This document shows positions 4,493-62,775 of a stretch of 64,000 bases of DNA, piece by piece. The first letter of the stretch is position 1. Every line of letters starts with the position of its first letter. The notes under the pieces are model-generated. The model did no database searches and had not been told where the DNA came from. It was given only the letters and a program-made list of their open reading frames with translations. The translations under genes were made by a program, and so were the position numbers. Origin of the DNA: Cephaloticoccus sp. (lineage in GTDB: Bacteria > Verrucomicrobiota > Verrucomicrobiia > Opitutales > Opitutaceae); contig JAURHD010000015.1 in NCBI GenBank assembly GCA_030833445.1, positions 1 to 64,000 on the forward strand, in the 5' to 3' direction.

Positions 4493-4515
4493 TCGAACCT
4501 TCTTTTTTTATTCAG

Positions 4516-30799: not shown

Positions 30800-31779
30800 T
30801 CATCACTCGTTCACCCTTGCGCGTTTCCCTTGGCGGCGGAGGCACTGACCTACCCTCATATTATCGTGAACATGGTGGATTTCTCATCGCCGGGGCCATC
30901 GACAAATATGTCTACCTCACCCTGCACCGCACTTTCGTGTCCGACCTGATCGTCAAGTATTCCAAACTAGAACGCGTGCCGTCTGCGGACCAATTGGAAC
31001 ACCCGATCATCCGCGAGGCTTTTGCCTTGCTGGGCCTGGATGGGCGCTCCCTTGAGTTGACTTCAATGGCCGACATTCCCGGCGGCACCGGACTGGGCTC
31101 CTCCGGCAGTTTCACCACCGCCCTGCTCAAGGTTTTGCACGCCGGCAACAAACACCAGATCTCACCAGCTGATCTGGCGGAGCAGGCCTGTCATATTGAG
31201 ATTGAACGCCTCGGAGAACCGATCGGTAAACAGGACCAATACATTGCCTCTGTCGGCGGCATCACCGCATTTACTTTTCATCCTGACGGTCGCGTCGAGT
31301 ATCGTCCTTGCCGTATTTCCGAGGAGACCTTGTTCAACCTCGAGGACAACCTACTGTTGTTTTTTACCGGTTACTCCCGATCGGCATCTGCCATCCTCAA
31401 GGATCAGAACATCAAATCCAAGCAGCAGGACCCGGCCATGCTCGATCAACTCCACTTCGTCAAGGATCTGGGCATGCAGTCGCTCAAGGCACTGGAAAAC
31501 GACAATCTGCCGGAGTTTGCCCGCCTCATGGATGTGCATTGGCAGCGCAAAAAAGTCCGCAGCACAGGCATGAGCAATGACCGGATCAACGAATGGTATG
31601 AATATGCCATGGTCCACGGTGCCCTCGGAGGAAAACTCATCGGTGCCGGCGGCGGCGGTTTTCTGATGTTTTATGCGGATGACAAAATCAGGCTCCGTCA
31701 CGCCATGCGTGAAAAGGGTCTGCAGGAAGTCCGCTTCCGTTTTGACTTTGAAGGCACAAAAGTAGTGACCCAGAATTGA
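30796..31779 (+). CDS. hddA: GHMP kinase, D-glycero-D-manno-heptose 7-phosphate kinase-like (HddA)
   Basis: This 327-aa protein matches the GHMP kinase fold: N-terminal ITRSPLRVSLGGGGTDLPSYY, the ATP-binding loop PGGTGLGSSGSF (about res 95-106), EIERLGEPIGKQDQY (about 135-149) and the C-terminal GGKLIGAGGGGF (about 279-290). This set is typical of HddA-type kinases, which phosphorylate C1 of D-glycero-D-manno-heptose 7-phosphate. The assignment is supported by adjacent guanylyltransferase, phosphoheptose isomerase and HAD phosphatase genes, which together make GDP-D-glycero-alpha-D-manno-heptose. Related kinases acting on fucose or other sugars cannot be fully excluded. Confidence 0.87.
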   Translation: MIITRSPLRVSLGGGGTDLPSYYREHGGFLIAGAIDKYVYLTLHRTFVSDLIVKYSKLERVPSADQLEHPIIREAFALLGLDGRSLELTSMADIPGGTGLGSSGSFTTALLKVLHAGNKHQISPADLAEQACHIEIERLGEPIGKQDQYIASVGGITAFTFHPDGRVEYRPCRISEETLFNLEDNLLLFFTGYSRSASAILKDQNIKSKQQDPAMLDQLHFVKDLGMQSLKALENDNLPEFARLMDVHWQRKKVRSTGMSNDRINEWYEYAMVHGALGGKLIGAGGGGFLMFYADDKIRLRHAMREKGLQEVRFRFDFEGTKVVTQN

Positions 31780-31782
31780 ACC

Positions 31783-32508
31783 ATGTCAGGCGCGAGCACC
31801 GACTTCCCCGTGGCCATCCTCGCCGGTGGTCTGGCCACCCGCCTCCGACCGGTGACCGAGAAAATCCCTAAGCTCTTGGTGGAAGTCGCCGGAGAACCGT
31901 TCTTCTCTCACCAACTCCGCCTGCTCAAGCAAAACGGACTCACGCGCATCGTCTTATGCGTTGGCTATCTCGGCGACATGATTGTCGAGCAATACGGAGA
32001 TGGCACGAAATTTGGAGTGCACATCGAGTATTCATTTGACGGCGATAAATTGCTGGGCACCGGCGGTGCCTTGATTCGCGCCCTCCCTTTGCTAGGTGAA
32101 GCGTTTTATGTCCTCTACGGCGACAGCTATCTTCCCATAAATTACCAGCAGGTCGGTCAGTCGTTCATCGAAGCGGAGAAACTCGGACTGATGACTGTAT
32201 ATGAGAATCGTGGAGCCTACGATACGAGCAACGTATGGTTTGAAGATGGCCGGATCAGGGTCTATTCCAAGAAGGAGCAAATCCCGCAAATGCGACATAT
32301 CGATTATGGGCTGGGTATTTTCCGTTCATCAGCCTTTGCCGGACAGCCATCCGGAGCCGTCGTCGATCTGGCCGCAGTGCAATCAACGTTGTGCGAACGC
32401 AGCGAGTTGGCTGGCTACGTGGTGCCGGATCGATTTTATGAAATCGGCTCTATTGCCGGCTTGCAGGAACTCGACCAGCATCTCCGAGCAAAATCACCTC
32501 TCCATTAG
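31783..32508 (+). CDS. hddC: Sugar-1-phosphate nucleotidyltransferase, HddC-like
   Basis: This 241-aa protein has the nucleotidyltransferase signature ILAGGLATRLRPVTEKIPK (about res 11-29) with the GGxxTRLRP and Pro-Lys features, LLGTGGALIRA, and VLYGDSYLPI for the metal site. Its short length fits HddC-type heptose-1-phosphate guanylyltransferases rather than longer left-handed-helix enzymes. It would form GDP-D-glycero-alpha-D-manno-heptose from the 1-phosphate. Gene context (HddA-, GmhA- and GmhB-like neighbours) supports this. A mannose-1-phosphate or other sugar-nucleotide specificity is the main alternative. Confidence 0.83.
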   Translation: MSGASTDFPVAILAGGLATRLRPVTEKIPKLLVEVAGEPFFSHQLRLLKQNGLTRIVLCVGYLGDMIVEQYGDGTKFGVHIEYSFDGDKLLGTGGALIRALPLLGEAFYVLYGDSYLPINYQQVGQSFIEAEKLGLMTVYENRGAYDTSNVWFEDGRIRVYSKKEQIPQMRHIDYGLGIFRSSAFAGQPSGAVVDLAAVQSTLCERSELAGYVVPDRFYEIGSIAGLQELDQHLRAKSPLH

Positions 32509-32512
32509 TCCC

Positions 32513-33118
32513 ATGTCCTACACTACCCAACATCTTCAGGAAGCATCTGAGATTATCTCCAAACTGAATTCCGCTGATTGTGAAAATTGCGTCGCCGTGC
32601 TGCAGGCCGTGCGTGCACGCGGGGGCCGGCTCTTCATTCTGGGCGTGGGTGGCAGTGCAGCCAATGCCTCGCACGCAGTGAACGATTTTCGTAAGATTGT
32701 TTGTTTTGATGGTTCGGCGCCCACCGACAATGTCTCAGAGTTAACCGCCCGCACCAATGACGAGGGTTGGGCCAGCGTATTTGTCGAGTGGCTGCGAGGT
32801 TCACGGCTGACGGCCAAGGATGGAATCATGGTGCTTTCAGTGGGTGGTGGCAATCTGGAGAAAAATGTCTCTCCCAATCTGGTGACCGCCCTGCAATTCG
32901 CCAAGCAGATCGGCGCCAGTGTGCTGGGTATTGTGGGCAAGGACGGCGGATACACTGCCTCGGTCGCCGATGCCTGCGTAGTCGTTCCCACGGTGAACCC
33001 GGCCAACATCACACCACACGCCGAAGCTTTCCAAGCCGTCATCTGGCATCTGTTCGTCTCCCACCCGGCACTCAAGGTGAACCAAACCAGATGGGAATCG
33101 GTCGAAAAGCGTCCCTGA
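32513..33118 (+). CDS. gmhA: SIS-domain phosphoheptose isomerase-like protein (GmhA)
   Basis: This 201-aa protein is a single SIS domain: LGVGGSAANASHAVNDF (about res 43-59), LSVGGGNLEKNVS (about 105-117) and LGIVGKDGGYTASVADACVVVP (within about 135-156). This pattern matches sedoheptulose 7-phosphate isomerases. The first His of the GmhA metal site is present, while the following acidic position reads Asp. The ATG at 32513, 4 bp after the upstream stop, gives the usual length; a longer frame from 32201 lies within the nucleotidyltransferase gene. It would supply D-glycero-D-manno-heptose 7-phosphate from sedoheptulose 7-phosphate. Confidence 0.85.
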   Translation: MSYTTQHLQEASEIISKLNSADCENCVAVLQAVRARGGRLFILGVGGSAANASHAVNDFRKIVCFDGSAPTDNVSELTARTNDEGWASVFVEWLRGSRLTAKDGIMVLSVGGGNLEKNVSPNLVTALQFAKQIGASVLGIVGKDGGYTASVADACVVVPTVNPANITPHAEAFQAVIWHLFVSHPALKVNQTRWESVEKRP

Positions 33119-46340: not shown

Positions 46341-48590
46341 ATGCACGACACCCCCTTTAGTTCTTCACAAGTAGAAGCCCCGCAACCCGGTGCCACCATC
46401 GCCCCAGGGTGGCAAATTATCCGCGGTTGGGTCTGGCCCAAGAAAGGTGGTCATTTCGTGGATGTGCGCGCGCGTGTGGAAGGTCGACTATTTCCCGGTA
46501 TCTACGGCCGTTCCCGACCGGACCTCGCCGCGCACTTTGGCACCGGACCTCGTTTGGCACTGGCCGAATTCAGTATCTGCCTTGAACTTCACCCCGGTTC
46601 TAAAGAGGTGACGCTTGAGGTGCTTGAACTCGAAGGACGTTGGACGCCTTTTCAGTCGGTTACCTATCAGGTCGAAGGAAAGGTGACCCATACAGCTACG
46701 CCCTCCAGTCCGCGCCCCCTGCGGTGGCATGACTTTGGCCGCGGACTGGATTACCTGTTGCGTTGTCGACGCACCCGGCCTGAAACTCCTTGGGTTCAAC
46801 TCGCGGTGGAACTGGCAGCTCAACTGCCCACGGTGCAGGATTTGCTGCATCCTCCTGAACCATTCATCGGGCATGCCGATGAGCCTGCGGTAATTAATAG
46901 CAGTCGATTAGGTCGCATTCCCTTAGTAGGTTATTTGTTTCATACCACCGGCATCATTCAACGCCTTTGGGCAACCGCCGATCTGCAAGCCCTGCAACCC
47001 ATCACGCTCGGTCGCAACACCGACAATTTGGCGCCTCATTTCCCCCAGTATCCCCAAGCAACCTCCTCGGGTTACGAGGGGTATGTGGACGTGCCGACTC
47101 AACTTCCCAATCCCGTCACCGTGCGACTCTACGCGGAGACGCCTGACGGGGCACTACATCTCGTGCACGTGCGTCGGACTCGTCGCCATGACGCCGAAAT
47201 GGAAAAATATCCTTCAGTCGACGCGACCCCGGAAAATTTTGCGGCCGCACTCTCAGCTTGGGAGAGCGCACTGCAAGTGCGAGGCGTAGCCGTAATTCGC
47301 GATGCCGAACTCACGCGGACAGTGATGGAGCTGCGCGCAGATTATCTCAAGGCTCCGCGTGCGATCACCACCGCACCACGCAGGACAATGGCAATCAAAC
47401 TGGACCCAACCCTACGTCCTCCAACTCGAATTATTCTCGCGACCCACAATCTGAATCTTGAAGGGGCGCCTTTGTTTCTACTCGATTTGGCCCGGCATCT
47501 GGCTGCGGGTGGCGCGCAACTCACCGTGGTCAGTGCCGATGATGGCGTGTTGCGGGAGCGTTTTGCTGCCCTCTGCGCCACTATTAAAATCGTCAACGTG
47601 ACGCCGGTGTTCAGGGCCTCCAGCGCCGATGCCGCGCAGACAGCACTGGCAGAACTAGGTCGGGACTTTGACTTCGGAACAGCAGATCTGGTAATCACCA
47701 ACACATTTACCACCTTCTGGGCCGTTCATGCGGCCAAGCTCGCGCGGCGGCACGTGCTCAGCTATGTGCACGAAAGCACCAGCCCGATGGCGTTCTATGG
47801 TCGCACCCTCCATCCATCGGTGCTGGCGTTGGTTGATGACGCTTTGGAACTGGCCGACGCGGTATCGTTCACCAGTGAGGCCACCCGCAGATATCACGCG
47901 CGAGCCGATCGACCACTCAATGCCATGATTACCCCCGGGTGGGTGGATCTTCAAGCGATTGACCAATGGCAGAAGGAACATGCTCGCGCCGGGATCAGAG
48001 AAAATTTCGGCGTCAAACCCGATGAATTTCTCGTCACCAATATCGGCACGATTTGCGATCGCAAAGGACAACTGGGTTTCGCCCGGGCTGTGGACTTGTT
48101 CAACCGCAGACATCCGGAGTTGGCGGCTCAAACCCGTTTCATACTGTTGGGTGGCAGAAAATCTACTTTTGACGATATCCTGCGGGAGACTCTCAAAGGA
48201 TTGAATGTTCCCAATCTTGAAGTGCACCCCGAGCATTCCGACTATCTCGGCTACTATGTCGCGGCGGATCTGACCGCGTGTTCAAGTTTTGAGGAATCGT
48301 CCCCGCGGGTGGTTTTCGAAGCCATGGCTTGTGGGGTGCCCTTGCTCGCATCGGCAATTCCCGGCATCAATGAAATCGTGCAAGACGGAGTCGAGGCCTT
48401 GCTCGTGCCGCCCGGTGATACGACGGCTTGGGCCAATGCTCTGGCCGATATGTTAAACTCCCGGGACCTGCGGGCAAAACTATCCACCCGGGCTCGTGAC
48501 CGCGTCGCAGTCCACTACGCCGCGGGAAAAGTGCTCCCCCTGCACACCGCGCTCGCGTGCTCCGTGGCTGACGGCCAATTTACATCATGA
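46341..48590 (+). CDS. GT4 glycosyltransferase with two N-terminal beta modules
   Basis: This 749-aa protein has module A (about res 10-115: IIRGWVWPKKG, DVRARVEG, GIYGRSRPD) and module B (about 175-285: GHADEPAVI, LVGYLFH, YEGYVDV, RLYAETPDG). A GT-B domain from about 362 follows (ATHNLNLEGAPLFLLDLA, IGTICDRKGQ, FEESSPRVVFEAMACGVP). It matches the C-terminal GT4 and N-terminal modules of the giant protein upstream but lacks the two GT2 domains between them. ATG 46341 lies 10 bp after the upstream stop; an earlier ATG at 46275 overlaps it. The stop overlaps the next ATG. Confidence 0.83.
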   Translation: MHDTPFSSSQVEAPQPGATIAPGWQIIRGWVWPKKGGHFVDVRARVEGRLFPGIYGRSRPDLAAHFGTGPRLALAEFSICLELHPGSKEVTLEVLELEGRWTPFQSVTYQVEGKVTHTATPSSPRPLRWHDFGRGLDYLLRCRRTRPETPWVQLAVELAAQLPTVQDLLHPPEPFIGHADEPAVINSSRLGRIPLVGYLFHTTGIIQRLWATADLQALQPITLGRNTDNLAPHFPQYPQATSSGYEGYVDVPTQLPNPVTVRLYAETPDGALHLVHVRRTRRHDAEMEKYPSVDATPENFAAALSAWESALQVRGVAVIRDAELTRTVMELRADYLKAPRAITTAPRRTMAIKLDPTLRPPTRIILATHNLNLEGAPLFLLDLARHLAAGGAQLTVVSADDGVLRERFAALCATIKIVNVTPVFRASSADAAQTALAELGRDFDFGTADLVITNTFTTFWAVHAAKLARRHVLSYVHESTSPMAFYGRTLHPSVLALVDDALELADAVSFTSEATRRYHARADRPLNAMITPGWVDLQAIDQWQKEHARAGIRENFGVKPDEFLVTNIGTICDRKGQLGFARAVDLFNRRHPELAAQTRFILLGGRKSTFDDILRETLKGLNVPNLEVHPEHSDYLGYYVAADLTACSSFEESSPRVVFEAMACGVPLLASAIPGINEIVQDGVEALLVPPGDTTAWANALADMLNSRDLRAKLSTRARDRVAVHYAAGKVLPLHTALACSVADGQFTS

Positions 48591-50830
48591 CCGAAAAATT
48601 CGGCTGGCAGTTCGATCTCGAAGTTCATCCCCCGGGCTGGAATTTTCCGGCAGGCAAGTCATGGGTGGCGGGATGGCTTTGGTCCAGTGAAGGGCGTCTG
48701 ATTTCCGATCTGCGGGCCTGGATTGATGGCCGGTCCTTTTTGGCCATTCATGGCCTGCCCAAGCCCGGACTGGACGAGCGTTTCCTGCAACACCCCGGAC
48801 CGCCTTATCTTGGTTTCACCATCCAAATCAATCCTCATGCCGGAGCCAAATTGTTCCGATTCGAAGTCCGCGATGAACATGGAAACTGGCGTGAACTTTT
48901 CCGCACCCAAATCAGTGTAGATCCAAAAGCCGGACCCTGCCCCCAGGCCAAAACTCTGGCTGAAATCCTCCCGACACAGATGGACCGTCTGCTACGCCAC
49001 CATACCGCCCATCCGGAAAATCCTTGGGCAAAGCTGGCAGATGAAACGGTTTCGACCGCACTCGGTGAACCTTTGGACTCTCTGCCCAATCCGCCTTTTC
49101 ATGGAGCACTCGAAGAACCACGTGAAGTTGGCTGGGTCCGCTATGGACGCATTTCGGTGACCGGTTGGCTGGCCCACCGCACAGCCAAAATCATCCGGGT
49201 CACCGCAATGATTGACCCGGTCCTCGAGGTATCGCTACTGCATGGCCTGCACCGCACAGATATCGATGGCGTTTTCGCGGACCTGCCCGGACGGGAGACC
49301 TCGGCCTTTCTCGGACTGGTTGACCTACCGACAGGCTCAAGCACTCCTGCGCTCTTGAAGATTTTTGCGGAACTTGAAAATGGGGAAAAGCACTTGGTTT
49401 TTGCCCAACGTTTCACCCCACGAATTCTTGCCGGCGCCGAGTCGCCCCTGCCTCCTTTATCGAGGGCATCTTACCTCAAGGCAAGTTGGGCCCTTTACCG
49501 GTCAGCGAAACGTCATCACCTGCCAAAATCGACCTGGTCCGACTTGCACACCGCCCTCCGCACCGCTTGGGATAGTTTCGCGGTCGAGGCCCCGGCCAGC
49601 CGCAGCCCCAAGGCGCTCAAGGCACCCGAGCTGCCTGATGACTCTACCAACACTCCCCTCCGGGTGATGGTGGTGACACACAACCTCAATTTCGAAGGTG
49701 CGCCGTGGTTCATTTATGAGCTGGCTTGTTTTCTGGCCTCTACCCCCGGAAACAAGGTGCATATCGTTTCTCCACAGGAAGGTCCTTTGCGGGCAGTCTT
49801 CGAACAAGTAGGACTGCCGGTGCAAGTAATCAATGTCGATGCGTTGCTGGCCACTCAAACATCCGCGGAGTTTCACGCAGCCCTCGCCGAATCTACAGCT
49901 AGCCTGCCTTGGGCAACAACCGATATCGTGATCGGCAACACCATGGTTACCTTTTGGGCTATGCATGCCGCCCGATTGGCGGGCAAGGCTGCACTGCTTT
50001 ACGTTCATGAGAGCTCTCCGGTTCGGCGCTTTTTTGCCCGACATCTGGCACCCGAAATTTTGGCCGTTGCCGAGGACGCATTCCATGTGGCTGATCACGT
50101 GGTTTACACGGCCGCTTCCACCCAGACGGTGCATGCCCGCATCAATTGCGACGGCAAAGCGGTGTTGATGCCCAGTTGGGTAGACGTAGCCCGGGTTGAT
50201 ACCTTCGTTGCCTCCCATGACGCCGCATCCCTCCGGCGCAAACATGGGCTCGATCCAGATGCTGTGCTCCTGGTCAATATCGGCTCACTTTGTGAACGTA
50301 AGGGTCAGCATATTTTCATTCAGGCAGCAGACCTCCTGCAGGACGAACTCAGCTTCACCTACCCGGATCGTAAAATTGTATTCGTAATGGTGGGAACCCG
50401 TCCGGGTCTCTATCTGGAAATGCTGGAAAAGGAAGTGGCCCGACGCGGTCTGGCCGATCGCGTAAGCTTCCTGCCCGAAACTGGAGAAATTTTCGATTTC
50501 TACCGCTTGGCCGATATTTTCGTCTGCACCAGCTTTGAAGAATCATTCCCCCGCGTATTGCTGGAATCGGCTGCATTCGGCCTGCCCATCGTTACAACCA
50601 ATGTGAATGGCATCCCGGAAATGCTGGCCGCGGACGAAGCGTGGCTGACTCCACCCGGCGACCGCTATCGGTTGGCTACGGCAATCAAATCAGCCTTGGA
50701 TGCGCATTTTTCCGGCGATCGGTCCCGATCCATCAAGGCTAGGGCCAAGGTGCTGCAAAAATACCATCAATCAAAGTCACTTCCGCTCCATACCGCACTG
50801 GCTCAGTCCGCGGCACGCCGGCACGCTTGA
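48587..50830 (+). CDS. GT4 glycosyltransferase with two N-terminal beta modules, paralogue of the preceding gene
   Basis: This 747-aa protein repeats the layout of the gene at 46341: module A (about res 3-110: VAGWLWSSEG, DLRAWIDG, HGLPKPG, LGFTIQI), module B (about 168-290: GALEEPREV, SVTGWLAHR, FLGLVDLP, LKIFAELENG) and a GT4 domain from about 358. The GT4 domain carries VTHNLNFEGAPWFIYELA, IGSLCERKGQHIF and EESFPRVLLESAAFG (EX7E motif). The ATG overlaps the upstream TGA (ATGA). These tandem copies probably add related sugars at successive positions. The donor is unknown. Confidence 0.83.
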   Translation: MTEKFGWQFDLEVHPPGWNFPAGKSWVAGWLWSSEGRLISDLRAWIDGRSFLAIHGLPKPGLDERFLQHPGPPYLGFTIQINPHAGAKLFRFEVRDEHGNWRELFRTQISVDPKAGPCPQAKTLAEILPTQMDRLLRHHTAHPENPWAKLADETVSTALGEPLDSLPNPPFHGALEEPREVGWVRYGRISVTGWLAHRTAKIIRVTAMIDPVLEVSLLHGLHRTDIDGVFADLPGRETSAFLGLVDLPTGSSTPALLKIFAELENGEKHLVFAQRFTPRILAGAESPLPPLSRASYLKASWALYRSAKRHHLPKSTWSDLHTALRTAWDSFAVEAPASRSPKALKAPELPDDSTNTPLRVMVVTHNLNFEGAPWFIYELACFLASTPGNKVHIVSPQEGPLRAVFEQVGLPVQVINVDALLATQTSAEFHAALAESTASLPWATTDIVIGNTMVTFWAMHAARLAGKAALLYVHESSPVRRFFARHLAPEILAVAEDAFHVADHVVYTAASTQTVHARINCDGKAVLMPSWVDVARVDTFVASHDAASLRRKHGLDPDAVLLVNIGSLCERKGQHIFIQAADLLQDELSFTYPDRKIVFVMVGTRPGLYLEMLEKEVARRGLADRVSFLPETGEIFDFYRLADIFVCTSFEESFPRVLLESAAFGLPIVTTNVNGIPEMLAADEAWLTPPGDRYRLATAIKSALDAHFSGDRSRSIKARAKVLQKYHQSKSLPLHTALAQSAARRHA

Positions 50831-50887: not shown

Positions 50888-53800
50888 GTGAACGAAAACG
50901 ACGCCTATATCTTTGATGTGGAAAACCCCGGTTCGTGGGTTTTTACGGGTGAACCAGTGTGGATAAGTGGATGGTTTCTAACCAAAACCGGGGCGATATT
51001 CTCCGATATCCGGGCGATCATCGCCGGGGTGCCGCATATGGGCATTCTGGGGATGCCACGGCCAGAGATTGAAAAGCAATACCGTGGAACCACCGGACTG
51101 CCCCATGCCGGTTTTCTCCTCCACGTGCAACCACCGCTTGGCGCTACCGATCTACGCATCGAACTCCTCGATGCCGGGCACCATTGGGTGGAGATCTGGC
51201 GGCGACCCATCAAAGTGCGCAAAGGACCTGGCCGACCGGCTCACTACAACCCGGCCCTCTTGCCAGATCACCTGCATCGCCTGCTTCAAGCCCGCCGGGC
51301 TGATCCGACCACCAGTTTGAATCAAGTCGCCACCAAGCTCATGCTTGAAGGCGCGGCCGTGCCACTCGATACGCTGCCCAATCCGCCCTTTTATGGTGCG
51401 TTGGAAAAGCCCGAGCTGGTCGGCGGTTCACAATACGGCAAGGTGCGCGTCGAAGGATGGATCATTCATCGGGAGCAACGTATTCGTCGATTGGTGGCGA
51501 GCACCCATCCTTTGGTGGAGAACGAACTTGATTACGGAGATCGCGAGCGAGCCGAGGCCGCCCTGCTTTTTCCGGATCATCCCTATGCCGGTCGCTCGCA
51601 ATATTTTGGCATGCTCGATCTGGACGAATTCGCTCCGAGCCCGGCCGTCATCAAGCTGTTTGCCGAACTTGAAGACGGCACCAATCATTTGGTTTTCACC
51701 CGACGCTTTCATGTCCGGGCCTGTCCGGTTTGGGAACGCCCTCTCCCCGTCTTTCAGCGCCGCGAGTTTTTCGACAGTTTCTTAGCCCTGCGCACGGCCG
51801 CACGAAAACTGGATATCGGCATGGGGGGAATTGTTGCCCAATGGCGTGCGCTCAAATCTGCCCATAATCTGTGCCGGCGCGACGCCCCGTTGGTTATACC
51901 GACTCACTTATCCCAGCGGGATCCGTATCTGCTCTGGCAACAAAACAATCAGCTGACTCCGCGACTGGTCGAGGTGCTCAAGGACGCGGCGCACAAACTA
52001 GGCGACGCTCCTGTTTTCACTGTGTTGGTTGATACCAGTAATTGCACACAGGCCCACATCGACTCCCTGTCACTTTCCTTGCTCGCCCAAATATATCCGC
52101 ACTGGGAGGCACATTTTGTTGGATCTGTGGACCCCACCGGCTCGGACGCTCGTTACCGCAAACATTCCGTCAAGCGTCCCGCCACCATAACGAGTGGACT
52201 CAACTCGGTCATAGAAACTTCCCGCGGCACTCATCTGATTTTCCTCCCCGGACATTCGCAACTCAGTCCCGATGCGCTGCTGGTGATCGCCGAACGGATC
52301 GCAGCACAATCTGATTTGGATCTGATTTACACGGATGAGGATCGCATGAATGCCGATGGACGGCGCAGCGATCCTGATTTCAAGCCAGATTGGAGCCCGG
52401 CGTTCGCGCTTTCTGGCCTATTTCCGGGCCAGCTCAGCGTTATCCGTCGTGAACTTGCGCAAGCACTAGGTGGTTTACGCGAATCATTTGCCTACGTGGG
52501 CTGGCACGATCTGCTGTTGCGTATTAGTGATGGTCTGGAATCTGACAAGGTCGCGCATGTGCCACTGGTTTGTCACCATGCCTGCGCGGAAATTCCGCGT
52601 GAATTGGATCTCAACCATCCGGCCTATGAACAGGCTCGCCAAGCCTTGGCCGAAGCCGTCAAGCGCCGCGGGTGGCCTGCTTCCCCATTCCTCCCCGAGG
52701 CGGGTAATAGCCGCCGGCAATGTTTCCATCAACTACGCTGGGACCGCGACCTCTTGGCCCGGTTACCCGTGACGATTGTGATTCCGACTCGCGACCGGTT
52801 GCATCTGTTGCAGGAGTGTGTTGAGCGGCTTGAGGAAACTGTTGTGTGGGACCATGTCTGTTTGGTGATCGTGGATGACCATTCACGTGATCCCGATGCC
52901 CTGCGTTATCTTGAACAAATCCAACTGCGGACAGATTTGCATTGCACCGTGGTCCGGTCGGCAGACCCCCACGCTCCATTTAATTATTCCCAACTCGTCA
53001 ACGCTGCCTTGCCCCAGCTGAAGACACCTCTGGTGCTCCATCTGAACAACGATGTAAATGCCTTGGAACCCGGTTGGCTCGAGGAAATGGTCGCCTGGTT
53101 TACCCAGGCAGATATCGGGGTCGTCGGTGCAAAACTCATTTTTCCAGATCGCTCCCTGAACCACACCGGCATCGTCATTGGACCGCATGGCGGTCTGGCC
53201 GATACACCTTGGGCGCGACTGCCCGAGAAAGAGATCCCCCCGAGTTGGCATGCCGTCACACGTGAAGTCTCCGCAGTAACTGGAGCCTGCCTGATGACCC
53301 GCACTGATCTTTACCGGCAACTCGGAGGATTTGATGAGGGTGATTTTGGCGTCGCTTACAACGACGTGGACTACTGCCTGCGCGTGCGCGGTGCTGGTCA
53401 GCGCGTCATCTACACTCCACAAGCCCGGCTCATGCACTGGGGCAGCGCGACCCGAGGAGTCACTTTTGATGACAAGGAGCACATTGCGTGGCTGCGGCGC
53501 TATGCCGGCTATGCGGATCCCTATTTCAAATCAAACCTGCTACTCAAAGGTAACCGGGTGCAGTGCCGGCCGGAAGGGGGCGCGCGGCCAGAACGGGTTG
53601 GTCGTATGCGAGTGCTCCTGATCACGCACAACCTCAACTTGGAAGGAGCGCCTTTATTCCTTTTGGAATACGCCACCCATCTGGCGCGGGTTGAAGGTTT
53701 CAAACTAGATGTGCTGGCCGGTCAAGAAGGTCCGTTGCGCTCGGCCTATGAAGCACTCGGAGCACAGCTGACTCTCATCAATCCTGGGTTGCTCATGCGT

Positions 53801-54763
53801 GCGCCTGATCGTGACACCTATTACCATGAACTCGGCGAAATTTCCACCTTGGTGGATTGGGAGCAGACAGATCTCGTCGTGGCCAATACCTTGCTGAGCT
53901 TCTGGGGCGTGCTTCTAGCCAAGAGCGTCGGGTGTCCGTCGCTGTTTTACATCCATGAAAGTTCGTCGGTGTTCCGTGCATTCGAAAACTCCCTCGCACT
54001 GGAACTGCATGTTCTGGTGCATGAGGCGTTGCAGAGTGCCACTCGCACGCACTTCCTTTGCACCGCGACCCAAGATTACTATGCGGACGACGACCGGGGC
54101 AATTTCCGCATCGTGCCCAGTTGGATCGGCATCAGCGAAATTGAGGCTTTTCGCTCAGAACACACACGCGCGGCCATGCGAATCAAGCACGGCTTGGTCC
54201 AGGACGAGGTCGTGATCGCCAACATCGGCACCGTTTGCGAACGCAAGGGGTTGCATATCTACATTCGAGCGATCCAGCAATTCAACCGACGTTACCGCGG
54301 CGAAAAGCCGGTCCGCTTTTTAATGGTGGGTGCACGGGAGGGTATCTACCTCGATTTGCTCAAACGGGATATTAAGCGCTTAGGTTTGGAAAACGTAACT
54401 CTCGTGCCGGAGACCCGGGAGGTTTTTGATTTTTTTGTGGCGAGTGATATGTTCGTCTGCACCAGCTACGAAGAATCGTTCCCCCGCGTAGTGATGGAGG
54501 CGATGGCCTTCGGCACTCCCATCGTTTCGACTGATGTGCATGGCATTCCGGAGTTGATCGGCCAACGCCAGGATGGATATTTGGTCAAACCGGGAGACGT
54601 CGAGGGATTGGCCACCATGATGCTGACCTGTCTGGCCAAGGAACGCAGCGGAAAATCGCTCGCGCCCACCGCAAATTCGAAGGTGCGCCGTTACCACGAT
54701 GCGGCTCTCATACTCCCGCAGCACGCCAATCTCGCACGGGCGGCCATGCTGGTCGGCGCGTAG
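50888..54763 (+). CDS. Giant glycosyltransferase with modules A/B, a degenerate GT2, an intact GT2 and a GT4 domain
   Basis: This 1291-aa protein parallels the gene at 42365: module A (about res 5-115: WISGWFLTK, GMPRPE), module B (about 167-285: GALEKPELV, RVEGWIIHR, YFGMLDLD, LFAELEDG), a first GT2-like region (about 375-600), a second GT2 (about 628-880: VTIVIPTRDR, VDDHSRD, LHLNNDVNALEPGWL) and a GT4 (about 905-1285: ITHNLNLEGAPLFLLEYA, GTVCERKGLH, EESFPRVVMEAM). In the first region the motifs VVVPAYN, ADDAS and ALVDHDD of its paralogue read VLVDTSN, VGSVD and IFLPGHS, so its metal and nucleotide site is lost while YTDEDRMN remains. The start is GTG at 50888. Confidence 0.83.
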   Translation: MNENDAYIFDVENPGSWVFTGEPVWISGWFLTKTGAIFSDIRAIIAGVPHMGILGMPRPEIEKQYRGTTGLPHAGFLLHVQPPLGATDLRIELLDAGHHWVEIWRRPIKVRKGPGRPAHYNPALLPDHLHRLLQARRADPTTSLNQVATKLMLEGAAVPLDTLPNPPFYGALEKPELVGGSQYGKVRVEGWIIHREQRIRRLVASTHPLVENELDYGDRERAEAALLFPDHPYAGRSQYFGMLDLDEFAPSPAVIKLFAELEDGTNHLVFTRRFHVRACPVWERPLPVFQRREFFDSFLALRTAARKLDIGMGGIVAQWRALKSAHNLCRRDAPLVIPTHLSQRDPYLLWQQNNQLTPRLVEVLKDAAHKLGDAPVFTVLVDTSNCTQAHIDSLSLSLLAQIYPHWEAHFVGSVDPTGSDARYRKHSVKRPATITSGLNSVIETSRGTHLIFLPGHSQLSPDALLVIAERIAAQSDLDLIYTDEDRMNADGRRSDPDFKPDWSPAFALSGLFPGQLSVIRRELAQALGGLRESFAYVGWHDLLLRISDGLESDKVAHVPLVCHHACAEIPRELDLNHPAYEQARQALAEAVKRRGWPASPFLPEAGNSRRQCFHQLRWDRDLLARLPVTIVIPTRDRLHLLQECVERLEETVVWDHVCLVIVDDHSRDPDALRYLEQIQLRTDLHCTVVRSADPHAPFNYSQLVNAALPQLKTPLVLHLNNDVNALEPGWLEEMVAWFTQADIGVVGAKLIFPDRSLNHTGIVIGPHGGLADTPWARLPEKEIPPSWHAVTREVSAVTGACLMTRTDLYRQLGGFDEGDFGVAYNDVDYCLRVRGAGQRVIYTPQARLMHWGSATRGVTFDDKEHIAWLRRYAGYADPYFKSNLLLKGNRVQCRPEGGARPERVGRMRVLLITHNLNLEGAPLFLLEYATHLARVEGFKLDVLAGQEGPLRSAYEALGAQLTLINPGLLMRAPDRDTYYHELGEISTLVDWEQTDLVVANTLLSFWGVLLAKSVGCPSLFYIHESSSVFRAFENSLALELHVLVHEALQSATRTHFLCTATQDYYADDDRGNFRIVPSWIGISEIEAFRSEHTRAAMRIKHGLVQDEVVIANIGTVCERKGLHIYIRAIQQFNRRYRGEKPVRFLMVGAREGIYLDLLKRDIKRLGLENVTLVPETREVFDFFVASDMFVCTSYEESFPRVVMEAMAFGTPIVSTDVHGIPELIGQRQDGYLVKPGDVEGLATMMLTCLAKERSGKSLAPTANSKVRRYHDAALILPQHANLARAAMLVGA

Positions 54764-54769
54764 CAAGTC

Positions 54770-57700
54770 ATGCGGACCTTTGCTGGCTTTCTCTTTGCCC
54801 TTTTTCTGATTGTCGCGACCGGGGCCATGCGCTGGCCGGGCATGGAAAAGGAGATTTGGAATGTGGATGAAGCCGTGACCTTCACCATGGCACGGCAGAT
54901 CCTGGCCCAAGACATTCCTTATCGCGACGCCGTCGATCAGCGCAATCCGCTGGCGCCTTATTTCCAGGCTGCGGTTTTTGGCCTGACCGGGCAGGCCAAT
55001 ATCAAAGCCCAACACCTATCATTGGTTTTCCTGATTGGATTTACCGCTATTCTGCTTTGGCGGATTGCACGTCGTCTGGATGGGAATGGCATCGGGATTG
55101 CCGCCGCCCTCTGGTTCACACTCTTATGCATGGTATTGCCCTCGGTGCGTGACACCATGCCGGCTCACACTGCCTGGTATCTGATATTTTTTACTACACT
55201 GGGATTTTATGCCCTGATTCGGGCTTGAACTTCATCCCGTCCTTGGTGGGCGTTGGTCAGCGAGGTGGCCTTCGGTTTTTCAGTCTTAGCCAAGCAACCC
55301 GGATTGCTGGATTTCGGGGTGGCCCTTGTCCTCCTTGTCCTCAGCTGGTTGATCGTGCCAGAGAGTCGCCGGAAACTATCCCGACTCATGGCATGGTTAA
55401 TAGTGGGTTTCGCTCACCCGATCGGCCTGACCTGCCTCTATTTCGCTTTCCATGGAGCATGGCGAGATCTGATCTATTACACTTGGACTTACAACAACAC
55501 CCTGTATGTCCCGGAAGTGCCGCGTTGGGAGCGCTGGCAAACGATCAGTGTGCCATTTGAACTAGCTTGGGAATACCATCCGCTCGTGCCCGTGCTTGGC
55601 GTGTTAGCTGCAGTATTTTTATTGCATCGCGTCATCCGTCATACTTTCCGCCGTCCCCGGCTATTTGATATATTTGCCTGGTTGATACTCGGCTGGTGCG
55701 CCTCAGGTCTTGTCGCCACGACCCTCGGTGGCCGCGGATTTACCCATTACTCGATCCAACTCATCCCCGGGCTCAGTTTGGCCTGCGGGTGGCTGACGGT
55801 CCGCGTAATTTCATTTATTCGACAGTGGATCGGTAGCAGTAAATTCCGCCTTCTGACCGGATTGGTCATCACAACCTCTGTGACGATCTGGTTGCTCCTG
55901 CCTTTGCTCAGCCGGTTACAGGCGCTCCGCCTCCCTGAGCCAGGCAGTGAAGTCATGAATGAATTAGTGCATCAGCAATCCAGTTCCACCGACCGAATCT
56001 TCGTCTGGGGCTACAATCCTGAAATCTACGCCATGAGTGGGAGGTTGCCTGCCACGCGTTTTCTTTACTGCACATTCCTCACCGGGATCATTCCGTGGAC
56101 CAACCTGGATCCCTTGCGGAATACCGATTACGCAGTGGTGCCGGGGGCATGGGATGATTTCCTGGCCGATTGGAATCGCCACCCCCCACGCCTGATTGCC
56201 GACGGTCGATCCCAGCGCGGGTTCTTGAAATTCCCGATTGATAAGCAACGAGTGCTCTGGCCGCTCATTGAGCGCGACTACGCGCAAATTGAGATCGATA
56301 AAACGAATTTGATCGGATTCTGGCTTTTCCGCCGCCTCGAATCTAACACGCCGACAGCCGTGCCTGATTTGCCAGCTAGCGATGAGATCCAACTGCAAAT
56401 GGAACCGACGAATATCGGTCACATGGCCCGAGTTGAAGTCCGCGCACCGGTAGGCACTGTGTTGGTCGAGCTATTCATTGACGGCAACCTCTACCGCCGG
56501 TTGCAGTGTGCCCCGGCAGCTTCGGTTTCGGTTTGTTTCTTTGTCCTGCCCCAAGATAGATCCTCAAGTGGCAATAAAATACAGGTTCTAGCCAATGGTG
56601 AGTATGGCAGCCTGCTCAGTGCCGAGCAGAAACTGGAAGTAATCAAACCCGTCACAGCTATCGGCGGCCCACCGCTGCGATTCTTGGACCAAAATATCGG
56701 GGCAGTGGAATCGAGCACGATTACGGGCGGTCCTATATTACCCAAGCCGGATGATCCGTCACACTGGGACGCGCACCCGCCTTCCCGGCTCGTCTATCCC
56801 TGGTTGGAAGGAATGAATTAGCTGGCATTTGCCTTTGGCATTGAGGAGCCGGCGTTGGACAAAGAACCACCCAACGGGACTGATGGTATCGAAGTGGTTG
56901 TCCAGACTGAGGATGCTTCAGGAAAAATAACCACCGTTTATCGCAACTATGTCGCCCGTGAGAACGCCCGTCGCACCAGGGGCCGGGTGATGGGGTTCAC
57001 AACCCTCCCTTCACATATCGGGATTGGTCGGATTATTTTGCAAATGACTCCCGGGCCACGTTTCGATGTGGCCTTTGATTGGGGCTATTGGCTTTGGATC
57101 CGCACCGATCCATCGCCTATCGAATTATCGGCGGGTGGCAAAGCACTACACCCCGTTCAGGTCGATGCACCCAATCCTCTTCGGCAGACTGAGTTCAACG
57201 GACATTTTATCACCGAAGCAGATGCACCCGCCGTCATAGATTTTGCCACTGCGCCAAATTTCATAGAGTTACAAGGTGGGTTCGGCATGTTGGACAGTGC
57301 CTGGCTTGGTTCCACCAAGTCCGGACCAGTCGAATTTTCCATCTCTTTAATTAGACCGGATGGCCAAAGATCGGTGTTGCTGGAGCGCATGCTCGATCCA
57401 AAAAACGAACCCAATGACCGCGGTATGCGGCCCTTCAAGGTTGCCCTGCCGCAACCGTTAAGCGGACGCCTGCGTCTGATGATCAGGGCCGGAAATGAAA
57501 CTATTCCTGTTCAAGGATTTTGGACCGGACTAACGGCTACCACAATCGACATGTCCCTCCGGACCAGCACGGGAGCCATCCCTCCAGACCAACGCAGCCG
57601 CTCTGATTTTGGATTCAACCAAACTGTGGAGGATGGCAAAGCGTGCCTGTTTGCACATGCCAACACCACTCTGGTCTACCCTTGGCAAGAAGGCATGCAG

Positions 57701-57988
57701 CGCCTCTCGGGTGAATATGGTATCATTCATGGCGCCTATGCGGCTGGTAACACCACCGAAGGCGTGATTTTCAGTGTCGAGATTGAGGATGCACAAGGTA
57801 ATCGCCATGAACTATTCAGGCGGCATTTGGCTCCGGTTACACAACGCAATGACCGAGGGGCTCAATCATTATCAGTTGAACTACCACCGATGCCGGGTGG
57901 AAAAATCATCCTGCATACATCCGCACCTCCGTCCGGCCATTTGAATAATGCTTGGAGCTATTGGCGCGATCTGCAAGCCGGTCCTTAG
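54770..57988 (+). pseudogene. GT39-like membrane glycosyltransferase gene interrupted by two in-frame stop codons
   Basis: One frame runs from ATG 54770 to TAG 57986-57988 and is broken only by TGA at 55226-55228 and TAG at 56819-56821. The 5' piece has a membrane helix and the catalytic-type loop IWNVDEAVTFTMARQIL. The middle has further helices beginning just after the TGA (FGFSVLAKQPGLLDF). The 3' piece carries three copies of a C-terminal beta module. The gene at 62786 aligns without gaps across the TGA, from FFTT to LAKQP against FFSS to LSKQP. A later module (WQEGMQRLSGEYGI) aligns across the TAG (WLEGMN, stop, LAFAFGI). The frame is otherwise intact, so the gene looks recently inactivated or is expressed as fragments. 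Confidence 0.78.
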
Positions 57989-58075
57989 GGTTCACCACAA
58001 TTTACCACGACTTGCCTGGTCCCGTAGGGGCTTGCCCGCGCAATCCATTCCATGCTTAGTCGCAAGTTCGCAATC

Positions 58076-60577
58076 ATGACACTGACCAAAAACCGATTCC
58101 CCCCGCTCTGGCTGATTATTGTTTTGGCGGCTACCGTGGCTTTGGTTTTCGCCTGGTATACCAACCATGTTTGGGAGGACTACTACATCACCTATCGTTC
58201 CAGCAAGAATCTGGCGACAGGGCATGGTCTGGTCTATAATCTTGGGGACAAGCTACACACGTTTACATCACCGCTGGGTGTGTTGCTGCCAGCGGTGGCC
58301 AGCCTATTGACCGGTAATTCATCCGACGATGCTGCGTTGTGGATTTTCCGTGTGATGTGTGCGGCGGCCTTGGGCGGAGGTGTGGGGTTGCTGTTCGTCA
58401 TTGCCCGACGTCACGGATTGAAGGGTCTCGCCTTACTGCTGCTGGTCGCCGGTTTGTTGTCTGATCCCAAGACCATCGATTTCACCATCAACGGGATGGA
58501 GACGGCATTTCTGCTGCTGTTTCTGGCTTATGCTTTTTGGAGTCACCTGACACCCGGACGCCGACAATGGCTCCATCTGGGTGGGGCTTGGGCGGGTCTG
58601 ATGTGGACCAGGCCCGATAGCTTTATCTATATCGGCCTGATCGCGGTAGGCTTTTGGCTCTTCAATGACGAAGCTCAATCCGGGAAAAGTCGCAGCAGTC
58701 TGACCCGGCTATATTTTCAAGCCGGACTGGTCACCACCGCACTCTATTTGCCGTGGCTTTTATGGGCGACTTCCTACTACGGCACCCCCATTCCTCACAC
58801 CATAACAGCAAAAGGAGGTATCAGTGAAGCTCGCACCCTGGGTGGCGTGCTGCTGACGGCAGTGCAATTGCCATATCTGGCCTGGTTCAAGTCCTCTTCG
58901 CTCGAACTCACGTTTCTGCCACCCTATTACATGATCGGCGGCTGGCCCCAAGGCTTGATCTACGGTTCCAGGCTTCTGGCCAGCATCAGCTGCTTGCTTT
59001 GGCTACTTCCGTTTTTACGGCCATGGGCCAGGACGGCGTCCTTTGCGTATTTCGGTGCGCACGTTTATCTCACCTATTTTCCTTACTTTCCTTTCCCGTG
59101 GTATATTCCGAGCACCACCCTCCTCGCCTTGATTGCTCTCAGCGGCTTGGTGGACTGGCTGGGATCGGTCACCAAGAAGCAGGTTCTGATTCGTAGAACA
59201 ACCACCGTCGTGGTCGCCGTGTTACTCGCAGGTAATGCGTGGATGTTGGTCCAAGTATCCCGCCAAGTTGCCGTGGGGCAACGTTTGGTCGAGGATGGCA
59301 CGCGTCGAAAAATCGGCGAATGGTTGCATCATAATGCTGCACCGGGCGACACGGTATTTATGGAACCCCTCGGTTACATCGGCTTTTTCTCCAATCTAAA
59401 AACCTATGATTGGCCAGGTATGTCCTCCCGTGAAATGGTCGATGCTCGCCAGCATGTGGGCAGCAATTGGGCCACCCTCATGCAATATCTCGAGCCGGAC
59501 TGGGTGGTTTTGCGGCCATTTGAAGTAGAGCGGATCAACCGGCTTTCCTACCGGCTGCTGTCCGACGACTACAAAGTAGCCCAGGTCTTCGACAACTCCG
59601 CCAAAGTTGCCGCCCTCAACGTCAACGGTCTGCCCTACCTTGAACACGATGCACACTTTATCGTTTACCATCTGCGCCGAATCCCGATTGCGGACCGATC
59701 ACCGGTGACTTTAGCCCGAGACGAGCAGATTTTAACCCCTTCGCAAATCATGGTGACGGGTAAGGCCTATCACACGGATTTTAATGAACACAGGATTGCG
59801 ATCACGGGTGTGCCCGCCTTGATCGAGTTTCCGCTCACCCCGGATCTTTCTGAAGTCACGGGGGGCTACGGATTACTTGACGATGAATGGTTGCAACCCG
59901 AACCCGTCAAGCCGGTTGAATTTCGGGTGAGTGTGCTCGCCCCCGACGGGACCGAACAGGAACTCCTCCGCAAGGTTCTCGATCCATTCAATCAGCCGGA
60001 TGACCGTGGCTTCCGTCCATTCCGTCTGAGTCTGCCCCAACCGCTTGCCGGAAAATTGCGTTTTAGCACGAACTCAACGACACCGACCTCCAAGCAAATC
60101 CGCGCGTTCTGGGGCGAATTGAGAGCTATCCCTATTCGAACCAGTCTGCAGCTGAATGGCCGGTTGATCCCGGCATCTCCGGCCACCACCGCCCGCTTCG
60201 GATTCTTCAACACCGAAGAGGCTGGCCAGCCCTGTGTGCTCGCGCACGCACCGGCCAAGTTGGTCTACGACTGGCAGGAGGGAATTGATCATTTCATAAC
60301 CGAATTCGGCATCATGAAGGGAGCTTATACCGAGGGCAATACCACTGATGGGGTGATCTTTATATTGGAATTGGAAACAGCGGAGGGCAGCTCCACTGAA
60401 CTCTTTCGTCGCTACCTCGACCCTCTGAATGTCGAGGCTGACCGCGGGGACCAACTGCTCCGGGTAGCCGTTCCACCGACGCCCGGAGGACGGCTGATAT
60501 TACGCACCGCCCCACCACCCTCGGGACATCTCAACCATGCCTGGAGTTATTGGCGGGCGATTCGCACTTCGCCCTAA
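58076..60577 (+). CDS. GT-C membrane glycosyltransferase (AftB-like loop) with two C-terminal beta modules
   Basis: This 833-aa protein has an N-terminal helix, then VWEDYYITYRSSKNLATGHG (about res 32-51) and HTFTSPLGVLLP. This resembles the DD/ED-containing first loop of AftB-like arabinofuranosyl/mannosyl transferases that use polyprenyl-phosphate donors. About ten helices follow, with TINGMETAF and WTRPDSFIYIG conserved in its paralogue. Two copies of a module with a LDPxNxPDDRG signature lie at about 571-685 and 716-832, ending HLNHAWSYW. I placed the start at 58076 because it aligns with the paralogue's start at 60763; an ATG at 58052 would add 8 residues. Confidence 0.8.
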   Translation: MTLTKNRFPPLWLIIVLAATVALVFAWYTNHVWEDYYITYRSSKNLATGHGLVYNLGDKLHTFTSPLGVLLPAVASLLTGNSSDDAALWIFRVMCAAALGGGVGLLFVIARRHGLKGLALLLLVAGLLSDPKTIDFTINGMETAFLLLFLAYAFWSHLTPGRRQWLHLGGAWAGLMWTRPDSFIYIGLIAVGFWLFNDEAQSGKSRSSLTRLYFQAGLVTTALYLPWLLWATSYYGTPIPHTITAKGGISEARTLGGVLLTAVQLPYLAWFKSSSLELTFLPPYYMIGGWPQGLIYGSRLLASISCLLWLLPFLRPWARTASFAYFGAHVYLTYFPYFPFPWYIPSTTLLALIALSGLVDWLGSVTKKQVLIRRTTTVVVAVLLAGNAWMLVQVSRQVAVGQRLVEDGTRRKIGEWLHHNAAPGDTVFMEPLGYIGFFSNLKTYDWPGMSSREMVDARQHVGSNWATLMQYLEPDWVVLRPFEVERINRLSYRLLSDDYKVAQVFDNSAKVAALNVNGLPYLEHDAHFIVYHLRRIPIADRSPVTLARDEQILTPSQIMVTGKAYHTDFNEHRIAITGVPALIEFPLTPDLSEVTGGYGLLDDEWLQPEPVKPVEFRVSVLAPDGTEQELLRKVLDPFNQPDDRGFRPFRLSLPQPLAGKLRFSTNSTTPTSKQIRAFWGELRAIPIRTSLQLNGRLIPASPATTARFGFFNTEEAGQPCVLAHAPAKLVYDWQEGIDHFITEFGIMKGAYTEGNTTDGVIFILELETAEGSSTELFRRYLDPLNVEADRGDQLLRVAVPPTPGGRLILRTAPPPSGHLNHAWSYWRAIRTSP

Positions 60578-60762: not shown

Positions 60763-62775
60763 ATGAAACGTGTATCGCCACTACAAGCCACCGCCTTAGC
60801 TTTTATTGCCACCGTTGTGCTTGCTTTGGGCTTTGCACTCTACACTGGACATGTTTGGGAAGACTACTATATCACGTTCCGGTCCAGTCGGAATCTAGCC
60901 ACCGGTCACGGCCTGGTTTATAATCAAGGTGATCGGCTCCACACATTCACATCTCCGCTGGGAGTTCTTCTGCCTGCCCTCGCCAGTTTTCTGAGCGGGA
61001 ATACATCCGACACCACGGCACTCTGGCTGTTTCGCCTAATGTGCAGTGCTGCTTTGGGGGGCGCAGTGATGATGATGCTTGGATTGGCGCGGCAGTTACG
61101 GTATCCGTTGATCGCGGCGGGATTTTTGGCGGTTTACATTGCCACCGATGCCAAGTCACTGGACTTCACCATCAACGGCATGGAAACCGCGTTCATGCTG
61201 TTGTTTTTAGCCTATACCTGGTGGGCGCACTACACACCAAGACCAAGGCAGTGGCTGCATCTGGGTGGGGCCTGGGCCGGCCTCATGTGGACCCGACCCG
61301 ATAGTTTCATCTACATCGGACTCATAGCCGCAGGCGTATGGTTGTTTAATGATCCCATTAAAAGTGGTGTCAATCGACGTCAAATCCTGGGGTTGTATGT
61401 TCGAGCCGGTTTGATCGCCACGCTACTTTATGGTCCGTGGTTGCTTTTGGCGGGATGGTATTATGGTAGCCCGGTGCCCAATACGATCGTGGCCAAGGGC
61501 GCCCAAAGCGCAGGTGGTGGCGAACGATTGTTGGACGGATTTTGGCGTCTGCCATGGTTGATCTGGGAGGGACGATCCATGGCCGAAGGGGCGTTTCTTC
61601 CCTCCTATTATAGTTTACCTGCCTGGCCTGCCTGGATGCTGCCACTTGGGCGAATCCTCGCAACCTTGTGTGCTGTGCTTTGGTTGATTCCACGTCTGAA
61701 GCCGGAAGTTCGGGCCGCGTCATTCGCTTTTTTCGGTGGATCGGCCTACCTGTCTTTTGTCCCCTACTATCCCTTCCCTTGGTATTTCCCCAGCGTTTTC
61801 CTGCTCGCAGCCTTGGTCTTGGCCGGAACCATCGCGCAAGTCTGGCCGGTTATAGGAGCCTGGCCTCGCCGAACGCTTGGTTTGGGTGTCGGAGTAATCC
61901 TGATGGCGGCAATGGTTCTCACCTTGGAGTCTGCCCAGCAAGCGCGAGCTCAACAAAACTATATCGAAACCGGCAATAGAAGGGTGATCGGCGAATGGCT
62001 CAAGGAACATGCCCAACCGGGAGATTCCGTCTTTATGGAGCCACTTGGTTATATTGGCTATTTTTCCGGATTAAAAACCTACGATTGGCCTGGAATGTCT
62101 TCCCGTGAAATGGTCGATGCTAAGTTAATTGTAGGAACGAATTGGGGTGCACTCATTCGCTACCTGCAGCCCAATTGGCTCGTGTTGAGACCGGACGGTG
62201 AAGGCGACCTGCCCCAAATAAGTGCCGACCTCGCCGCGGCCAATTACCGCCCGATTCGGGAGTTCAATCGCTTGGACGATGTGCGGCAGCTCGATATTCC
62301 GGGTCGTAAGCTACTGGAATTTGACGCCCGTTTCCGGGTTTACCAGTTGATCAACCCCACCCGACACGATGTTGATGGAGTGGAAATTGCTTCACCTTAC
62401 GGGACCAGTATCCGTCAAATCGATGCTCAGCAAGTCCGCCTTGTGCATGCCCCTGGAGAGATGATCATTCGCGTGCCGGCCGATCGACAGGAAGTATCCG
62501 GCTCTTTCGGTTTCCCACCTGATGCCTACCTGGGTGAGCAACATACCAATGGAGCTAAGTTTCGCATATTTTGGAGCGATGGCCATGATCGCTGGGAACT
62601 ATTCAGCCGGTTGCTGAATCCTGCCGACCAAAGCACGGACCACCCCCTACAGAACTACGCCGTGCAGCTGCCAAGACTCAAAACAGGACGACATGCTCTC
62701 CTGACATTTGTGACAGAACCTGAAGGTAATTCCACCAAGGACTGGACCTGTTGGAGCACACCTGAATTCCGCTAG
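60763..62775 (+). CDS. GT-C membrane glycosyltransferase (AftB-like loop), paralogue of the preceding gene, one C-terminal module
   Basis: This 670-aa protein is collinear with the gene at 58076: HVWEDYYITFRSSRNLATGHG (split, about res 30-50), HTFTSPLGVLLPALASFLSG, DFTINGMETAF, WTRPDSFIYIGLI, PLGYIGYFSGLKTYDWPGM. It has a single C-terminal module (about 559-667: GSFGFPPDAY, LLNPADQSTDHP, DWTCWSTPEF) where the paralogue has two, which accounts for the shorter length. It is the second of a tandem duplication. A periplasmic glycosyl transfer role is inferred from fold and loop. Confidence 0.8.
   Translation: MKRVSPLQATALAFIATVVLALGFALYTGHVWEDYYITFRSSRNLATGHGLVYNQGDRLHTFTSPLGVLLPALASFLSGNTSDTTALWLFRLMCSAALGGAVMMMLGLARQLRYPLIAAGFLAVYIATDAKSLDFTINGMETAFMLLFLAYTWWAHYTPRPRQWLHLGGAWAGLMWTRPDSFIYIGLIAAGVWLFNDPIKSGVNRRQILGLYVRAGLIATLLYGPWLLLAGWYYGSPVPNTIVAKGAQSAGGGERLLDGFWRLPWLIWEGRSMAEGAFLPSYYSLPAWPAWMLPLGRILATLCAVLWLIPRLKPEVRAASFAFFGGSAYLSFVPYYPFPWYFPSVFLLAALVLAGTIAQVWPVIGAWPRRTLGLGVGVILMAAMVLTLESAQQARAQQNYIETGNRRVIGEWLKEHAQPGDSVFMEPLGYIGYFSGLKTYDWPGMSSREMVDAKLIVGTNWGALIRYLQPNWLVLRPDGEGDLPQISADLAAANYRPIREFNRLDDVRQLDIPGRKLLEFDARFRVYQLINPTRHDVDGVEIASPYGTSIRQIDAQQVRLVHAPGEMIIRVPADRQEVSGSFGFPPDAYLGEQHTNGAKFRIFWSDGHDRWELFSRLLNPADQSTDHPLQNYAVQLPRLKTGRHALLTFVTEPEGNSTKDWTCWSTPEFR

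Follow-up and report, generated by a model that had tools for sequence, protein, structure and literature searches.

The closest described counterparts of the locus reported here are the young nonsense pseudogenes of bacteria, with which it shares intact orthologs, two premature stops, intact neighbors, and no sign of drift yet. It differs from them in that independent breakage of the same gene appears to have occurred in three lineages or more, with differing lesion types. Belinky et al. 2021 (PMC7918605) argue that dN/dS stays below 1 for many in-frame stops of bacteria and that these are mostly short-lived; the present locus resembles those short-lived stops in its low dN/dS and in that its stops are not common to relatives, but here two stops occur in one gene, whereas the stops of that study were shared by at least two species. 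Fakih et al. 2026 (PMC13092985) describe UGA readthrough by a tRNA-Trp with a four-pair stem, whereas the tRNA-Trp of the genome analyzed here has five pairs with a weak top pair. At the level of the protein, the nearest described group is that of the GT-C membrane glycosyltransferases (Pfam PMT_2, PF13231), in which an intact ortholog is placed by its match over the cut-off; unlike these, the intact gene is extended at the C-terminus by about 500 residues in beta-rich modules, for which no Pfam match over the cut-off was found.

We analyzed a stretch of 64,000 nucleotides (the window) that is contig 6 of a 72-contig draft genome of Cephaloticoccus sp. (2.92 Mb, 97.75% complete). The locus most probably represents a very young pseudogene, hit twice, of a PMT_2-like GT-C glycosyltransferase that its family loses repeatedly. 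An earlier note had offered recent inactivation, reversible phase-like loss, readthrough, and sequence or assembly error as possible causes, and recent inactivation emerged as the likeliest in view of (i) the relatives with one uninterrupted frame, (ii) the intact neighboring genes, and (iii) the independent breakage of the gene in two other genomes, G001 and G164.

A single reading frame with two premature stops

The plus-strand region from 54770 to 57988 comprises 1,073 codons including the natural stop, and its translation contains exactly two internal stops. Since approximately 50 stops are expected in a random frame of 1,073 codons (3/64 per codon), the open frame cannot be attributed to chance. 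The list of open reading frames (ORFs) of the window contains three that lie in the same frame (54770-55228, 55253-56821, and 56855-57988), and translation bore out the earlier claim that they are in one phase and parted only by the TGA at 55226 and the TAG at 56819. The elements of the broken gene are as follows.

54770..55228, plus strand: segment 1, 152 codons up to the premature TGA, the N-terminal portion of a membrane glycosyltransferase of GT-C type (PMT_2-like)
54866..54871, plus strand: conserved Asp-Glu, codons 33-34, first loop, intact in the window and removed by a 4-base deletion in G164
55226..55228, plus strand: premature stop TGA, codon 153, TGG (Trp) in 8/8 other aligned copies
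55229..56821, plus strand: segment 2, the remaining helical membrane part and the start of the beta-rich C-terminal part (a division taken partly from a low-confidence structure model), ending at the premature TAG
56819..56821, plus strand: premature stop TAG, codon 684, Ser (TCG/TCC) in 8/8 other aligned copies, with TCG in G001
56822..57988, plus strand: segment 3, the rest of the C-terminal beta-rich modules, common to the end of gene 58052, with a natural TAG end

The ATG of segment 1 lies 6 nt past the stop of the upstream gene. We take the Asp-Glu pair at codons 33-34 to be the acidic motif of GT-C enzymes.

When the read-through frame was aligned with the intact protein of L022, residues 1-1070 were covered in 1,072 columns that contained only those two stops, which confirms that no frameshift has occurred in 3.2 kb. 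In the protein alignment the three segments abut, and exactly one residue is absent per join (Trp and Ser, respectively). A gap-free alignment with the gene at 62786 across the TGA had also been claimed and was reproduced; the corresponding alignment with the sibling module of gene 58052 proved gap-free around the TAG and showed 3 gap positions further on. The third-position GC content of the broken gene is 0.583, within the range of 0.566-0.632 of eight other genes of the stretch, and AT drift was therefore dropped as a sign of its age.

Orthologs and ancestral codons

The scan of named genomes yielded two orthologs. L022 (JAQSDJ010000188.1, a Lacunisphaera metagenome-assembled genome [MAG]; G174) has one open frame from 4107 to 7322, and L021 (JAUXOH010000105.1, a Candidatus Didemnitutus MAG; G090, partial) has a frame that is open to the contig end. 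With the L022 protein as the query, 252 genomes of the family were then searched, and 81 gave matches. Nine copies that are close or lie in the same place were retained (G174, G176, G165, G173, G164, G000 [the window], G090, G086, and G001); G171 (43-44%) and G082 (40%), which are both open in one frame, were left out as too distant. Six of the nine run as one frame across both stop sites, namely, G174, G176 (a one-contig genome), G165, G173, G086, and G090, which supports the earlier view of a single gene hit by two nonsense changes in frame. Both disruptions are thus missing from intact orthologs at the same place, a hallmark of a pseudogene. Seven genomes of the window's genus besides G001 were compared as well: G008 has a more distant homolog (39-46%), G006 a match at 34-35%, and G002 only a C-terminal stretch, and four are without a match.

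Codon 153 is TGG in all 8 other aligned copies, and codon 684 is TCG or TCC in the same 8, with TCG in the sister G001. Read from these alignments, the changes would most simply have been TGG>TGA (G>A) and TCG>TAG (C>A). The earlier suggestion that C-to-T deamination produced both stops (CGA to TGA, CAG to TAG) is refuted by these inferred ancestral codons.

The orthologs also bear on the idea that the gene has been split into three separate genes, each with its own start. Positioned 6 nt upstream of the TTG at 56855, a GAGGAG sequence that resembles a Shine-Dalgarno motif (window 56840-56857) would suit such a start. That TTG, however, corresponds to CTC in 6 copies and ATC in 1, and is TTG only in G001, which is itself broken; the TTG at 55253 corresponds to a start codon in none of the 8 other copies of the alignment. 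Furthermore, the segments fit together to the exact residue in the intact orthologs, and segment 1 ends inside a region that is helical in the low-confidence model. Orthologs organized as three genes with conserved starts, which would have spoken against a single broken gene, were sought among these copies; the frame is uninterrupted instead. Splitting was consequently rejected and is, as a very improbable reading, the last of the explanations considered.

Protein family and genomic neighborhood

The intact ortholog matches PMT_2 (PF13231) with 38.8 bits, above the cut-off of 26.1, whereas segment 1 of the window alone reaches 21.3 bits and remains below it. There is a weak match of the intact ortholog to Agl23-type proteins (TIGR03663), far below the cut-off, and a PDB sequence search with it returned no match at E values up to 0.1. 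The structure predicted for the intact ortholog has a mean pLDDT of 49 and can serve only as a rough guide; its first half is helical and its second half beta-rich. A beta-rich module of ~110 residues is repeated in the broken gene (56822-57988) and in gene 58052 (59690-60571), and it recurs in many genomes of the family, with matches confined to approximately residues 940-1068. No Pfam family exceeds the cut-off for this module, for which there is a sub-threshold hint of NPCBM (12.6 bits). A literature search did not retrieve the gene by name, an outcome that does not show it to be unpublished.

The broken gene lies in a densely packed series of genes, with glycosyltransferases to either side of it. 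Its neighbors are as follows.

48587-50830: GT4 gene upstream of the broken gene
50888..54763, plus strand: upstream neighbor, GT2 + GT4 glycosyltransferase, 1291 aa, intact, used as a control
58052..60577, plus strand: downstream neighbor, intact, 841 aa, sharing the C-terminal modules, used as a control
60763..62775, plus strand: further neighbor, 670 aa, without a Pfam match, intact, used as a control
62786 onward: downstream PMT_2 gene

Genes 58052-60577 and 60763-62775, both without a Pfam match, have a weak N-terminal similarity (28-39 bits; cut-off, 1050) to NF041481, a model of terminal beta-arabinofuranosyltransferases. Pfam matches elsewhere in the window comprise a GHMP kinase, a nucleotidyltransferase, a SIS protein just under the cut-off, and two epimerases, a set that would fit a supply of nucleotide sugars for a surface glycan. 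Three of these genes, for the GHMP kinase, the nucleotidyltransferase, and the SIS-domain protein, stand in a row at 30796-33118 and resemble a set for the supply of heptose nucleotide sugars to such a glycan. The window gave 0 matches in Rfam and tRNA scans. From family and neighborhood, the natural reading is that the predicted product was a membrane glycosyltransferase that acts on a surface glycan.

The same gene is broken in other genomes

The copy of G001, which belongs to the same genus as the window, is syntenic, with 78% DNA identity over about 23 kb. Compared to the window it contains seven indels (1, 1, 1, 1, 4, 19, and 1 bases), none of which is a multiple of three, and those codons of the homologous frame that can be compared contain no stop. 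In G164, which is of a different genus, the Asp-Glu codons are lost and the frame is shifted through a deletion of 4 bases (by hand count); this copy also has a TAG at a different codon, where 7/8 others encode Lys or Arg. The lesion types thus differ, with two nonsense changes and no indel in the window as opposed to seven indels and no nonsense change in G001, a difference that counts against the favored reading. Since no lesion is common to any of the three broken copies, the three losses look independent. The different lesions also give no support to the phase-like reversible loss proposed earlier. In both G001 and G164 the first lesion adjoins the conserved Asp-Glu (a 1-base deletion at G001:C181 ~9975, L014, and the 4-base deletion in G164:C30, L027 ~1498), a shared position that may be due to chance.

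Broken copies amount to 3/9 for the target and 0/34 for neighboring genes in the same genomes (Fisher p 0.007), in counts that were made by hand on phylogenetically non-independent copies and in which the own stop of the 62786 query and one stop past the end of a G086 gene, which the search with 60763 lists as free of stops, were taken as natural ends. Removal of the window, which had been ascertained as broken, left 2/8 versus 0/29 (p 0.042). The query 50888 retrieved 104 matches in 55 genomes, paralogs included and the best two candidates per genome scored, and none had an internal stop; the comparison of 3/9 with 0/104 for this upstream gene family gave a p of 0.0004. The query 60763 retrieved 75 matches in 50 genomes, 8 of which contained stops (seven with one TGA and G062 with two TAGs), all 8 at no more than 44% identity. 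The G062 sequence (G062:C74:16956-18992) is a more distant relative of these cluster genes with two TAG inside. Another distant relative, G058:C1:315508-316857 (L044), was listed with one TGA and one TAG, one of which is shown in the alignment; the G058 stops may be errors, as that genome is only 69% complete in 10 contigs.

These controls also concern the possibility that one or both codons are sequence or assembly errors, or minority-strain alleles in the consensus, so that the gene would be intact in most cells. The draft status of the 72-contig genome is compatible with this, as are the dN/dS of the window branch, which lies at background (see below), and the fact that each change is possible by a single substitution. 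In addition, Cooley and Wright 2024 (PMC11017572) attribute many putative pseudogenes to assembly errors, in an assessment that did not extend to MAGs. Against it, all 18 GT2 matches in the window's genome are without a stop, and the probability that two random hits share one window gene is 0.034; moreover, the gene hit is the very one that is broken in two other genomes. We also scanned ten ORFs from other same-frame or overlapping ORF pairs of the window, of which eight match Pfam. Pairs in which both partners match carry different families, so that, among the pairs scanned, these are not split genes; the pair 15160/16251 is without a match. In that pair (15160-16455 and 16251-18065), the ORFs overlap by 205 nt, and a frameshifted gene or an over-long start would both fit. 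Random error is thus a poor explanation, and we regard an artifact or minority allele as improbable, with a modest share of the probability left to it.

Selection on the broken gene and age of the loss

To estimate dN/dS, we used a GY94-type codon model (F3x4) on 8 copies with a fixed tree, in which stops and gapped codons were masked; G086, which was placed differently in two trees, was left out. For the broken gene, dN/dS was 0.109 in the background, 0.112 on the window branch, 0.161 in G001, and 0.153 in G164, and the corresponding values for the upstream gene were 0.084, 0.093, 0.094, and 0.110. Profile intervals, read between grid points, were ~0.08-0.155 for the window, ~0.11-0.25 for G001, and ~0.115-0.21 for G164. 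By segment (N, middle, and C), the window branch gave 0.089, 0.139, and 0.084 and the background 0.096, 0.108, and 0.107; the C part of G001 reached 0.278. G001 and G164 show only a small rise, and a four-rate model was not significantly better (2dlnL of 6.6 overall and 7.0 in the C part, for 3 extra parameters). The synonymous branch of the window lineage was 2.7 for the broken gene and 1.5 for the upstream gene, values near saturation from which nothing was drawn.

For nearly the whole branch, normal constraint acted on the window copy, also downstream of both stops, and the shift of dN/dS toward 1 that accompanies relaxed selection in pseudogenes is absent from this branch. If the gene has been neutral since its death, the interval leaves at most about 5% of the window branch for neutral time. 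Since dN/dS equals the background even downstream of both stops, the loss would be very recent; an unrelaxed dN/dS is expected in that case but is no evidence for it. The background-level value fits a very recent loss and equally fits low-level readthrough or stops that are unreal in most cells.

Decoding of the two stops

Leaky readthrough would involve a near-cognate tRNA-Trp at the UGA and another tRNA at the UAG, so that a low dose of full-length enzyme is made and still selected. The low dN/dS downstream of both stops and the position of the UGA where Trp was are consistent with this, and the argument of Belinky et al. 2021 (PMC7918605) about in-frame stops with dN/dS below 1 points the same way. 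However, several observations contradict it. (i) Two stops multiply the loss. (ii) No suppressor for TGA or TAG was found among the 42 tRNAs that RF00005 detected in the genome, to all of which ARAGORN assigned a sense anticodon, so that the suppressor tRNA envisaged earlier is not supported; this tRNA set of the draft is incomplete, since no tRNA-Ile is among the 42. (iii) The tRNA-Trp (G000:C71:61469-61541, L086) has the anticodon CCA; its anticodon stem, indexed by hand, comprises five pairs with G-U as the top pair. (iv) Neither stop is common to any of the 8 other copies (0/8), as opposed to what is expected of a conserved programmed readthrough. (v) G001 and G164 are broken by indels, which are beyond rescue by readthrough of stops. 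Readthrough of both stops that gives much product is unlikely, and we consider even the leaky, low-dose form very improbable. As a separate observation, the G-U top pair of the tRNA-Trp stem may represent a mild weakening of relevance to UGA readthrough.

Code reassignment, selenocysteine, and a suppressor tRNA were likewise rejected. The terminators of the 33 plus-strand genes of the window that were counted are TGA in 23, TAA in 5, and TAG in 5, so that TGA is the usual terminator, and only sense anticodons were detected. The best match to tRNA-Sec scored 43.8 bits (cut-off, 47) and is a serine tRNA according to ARAGORN.

Proposed history of the locus and its implications

We propose that the ancestor was a single gene of about 1,072 codons for a PMT_2-like membrane glycosyltransferase of the GT-C type, with beta-rich modules at its C-terminus, and that this gene would have resided in a large cluster of glycosyltransferase genes in Opitutaceae. 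In the lineage of the window, TGG>TGA at codon 153 and TCG>TAG at codon 684 would have silenced it. Translation should end after 152 residues, within the membrane domain, so that no active enzyme would be made and the gene would have no functional product. The cell would then probably lack one sugar or decoration of its surface glycan. The repeated loss may reflect a lessened need for the gene or a selective advantage such as escape from phages, and the most likely story is that the loss in the window is fixed or segregating. The locus looks like a case of ordinary repeated gene loss and not like a new decoding trick. A bolder version, in which the gene is a hot spot of recurrent loss that was long kept by selection and is repeatedly and independently knocked out by point lesions in separate lineages of Opitutaceae, probably under episodic selection on the cell surface (phage attack, for example), so that recent knock-outs appear beside intact neighbors, is possible but doubtful.

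The two stops can thus be explained without new biology, as one gene of a conserved cluster that is lost repeatedly while the neighbors examined are kept. For weighing a real lesion against an assembly error, comparison with sister genomes is of more help than the stops by themselves. Should the recurrence be borne out in more genomes, this transferase would be a target of episodic selection in Verrucomicrobiota.
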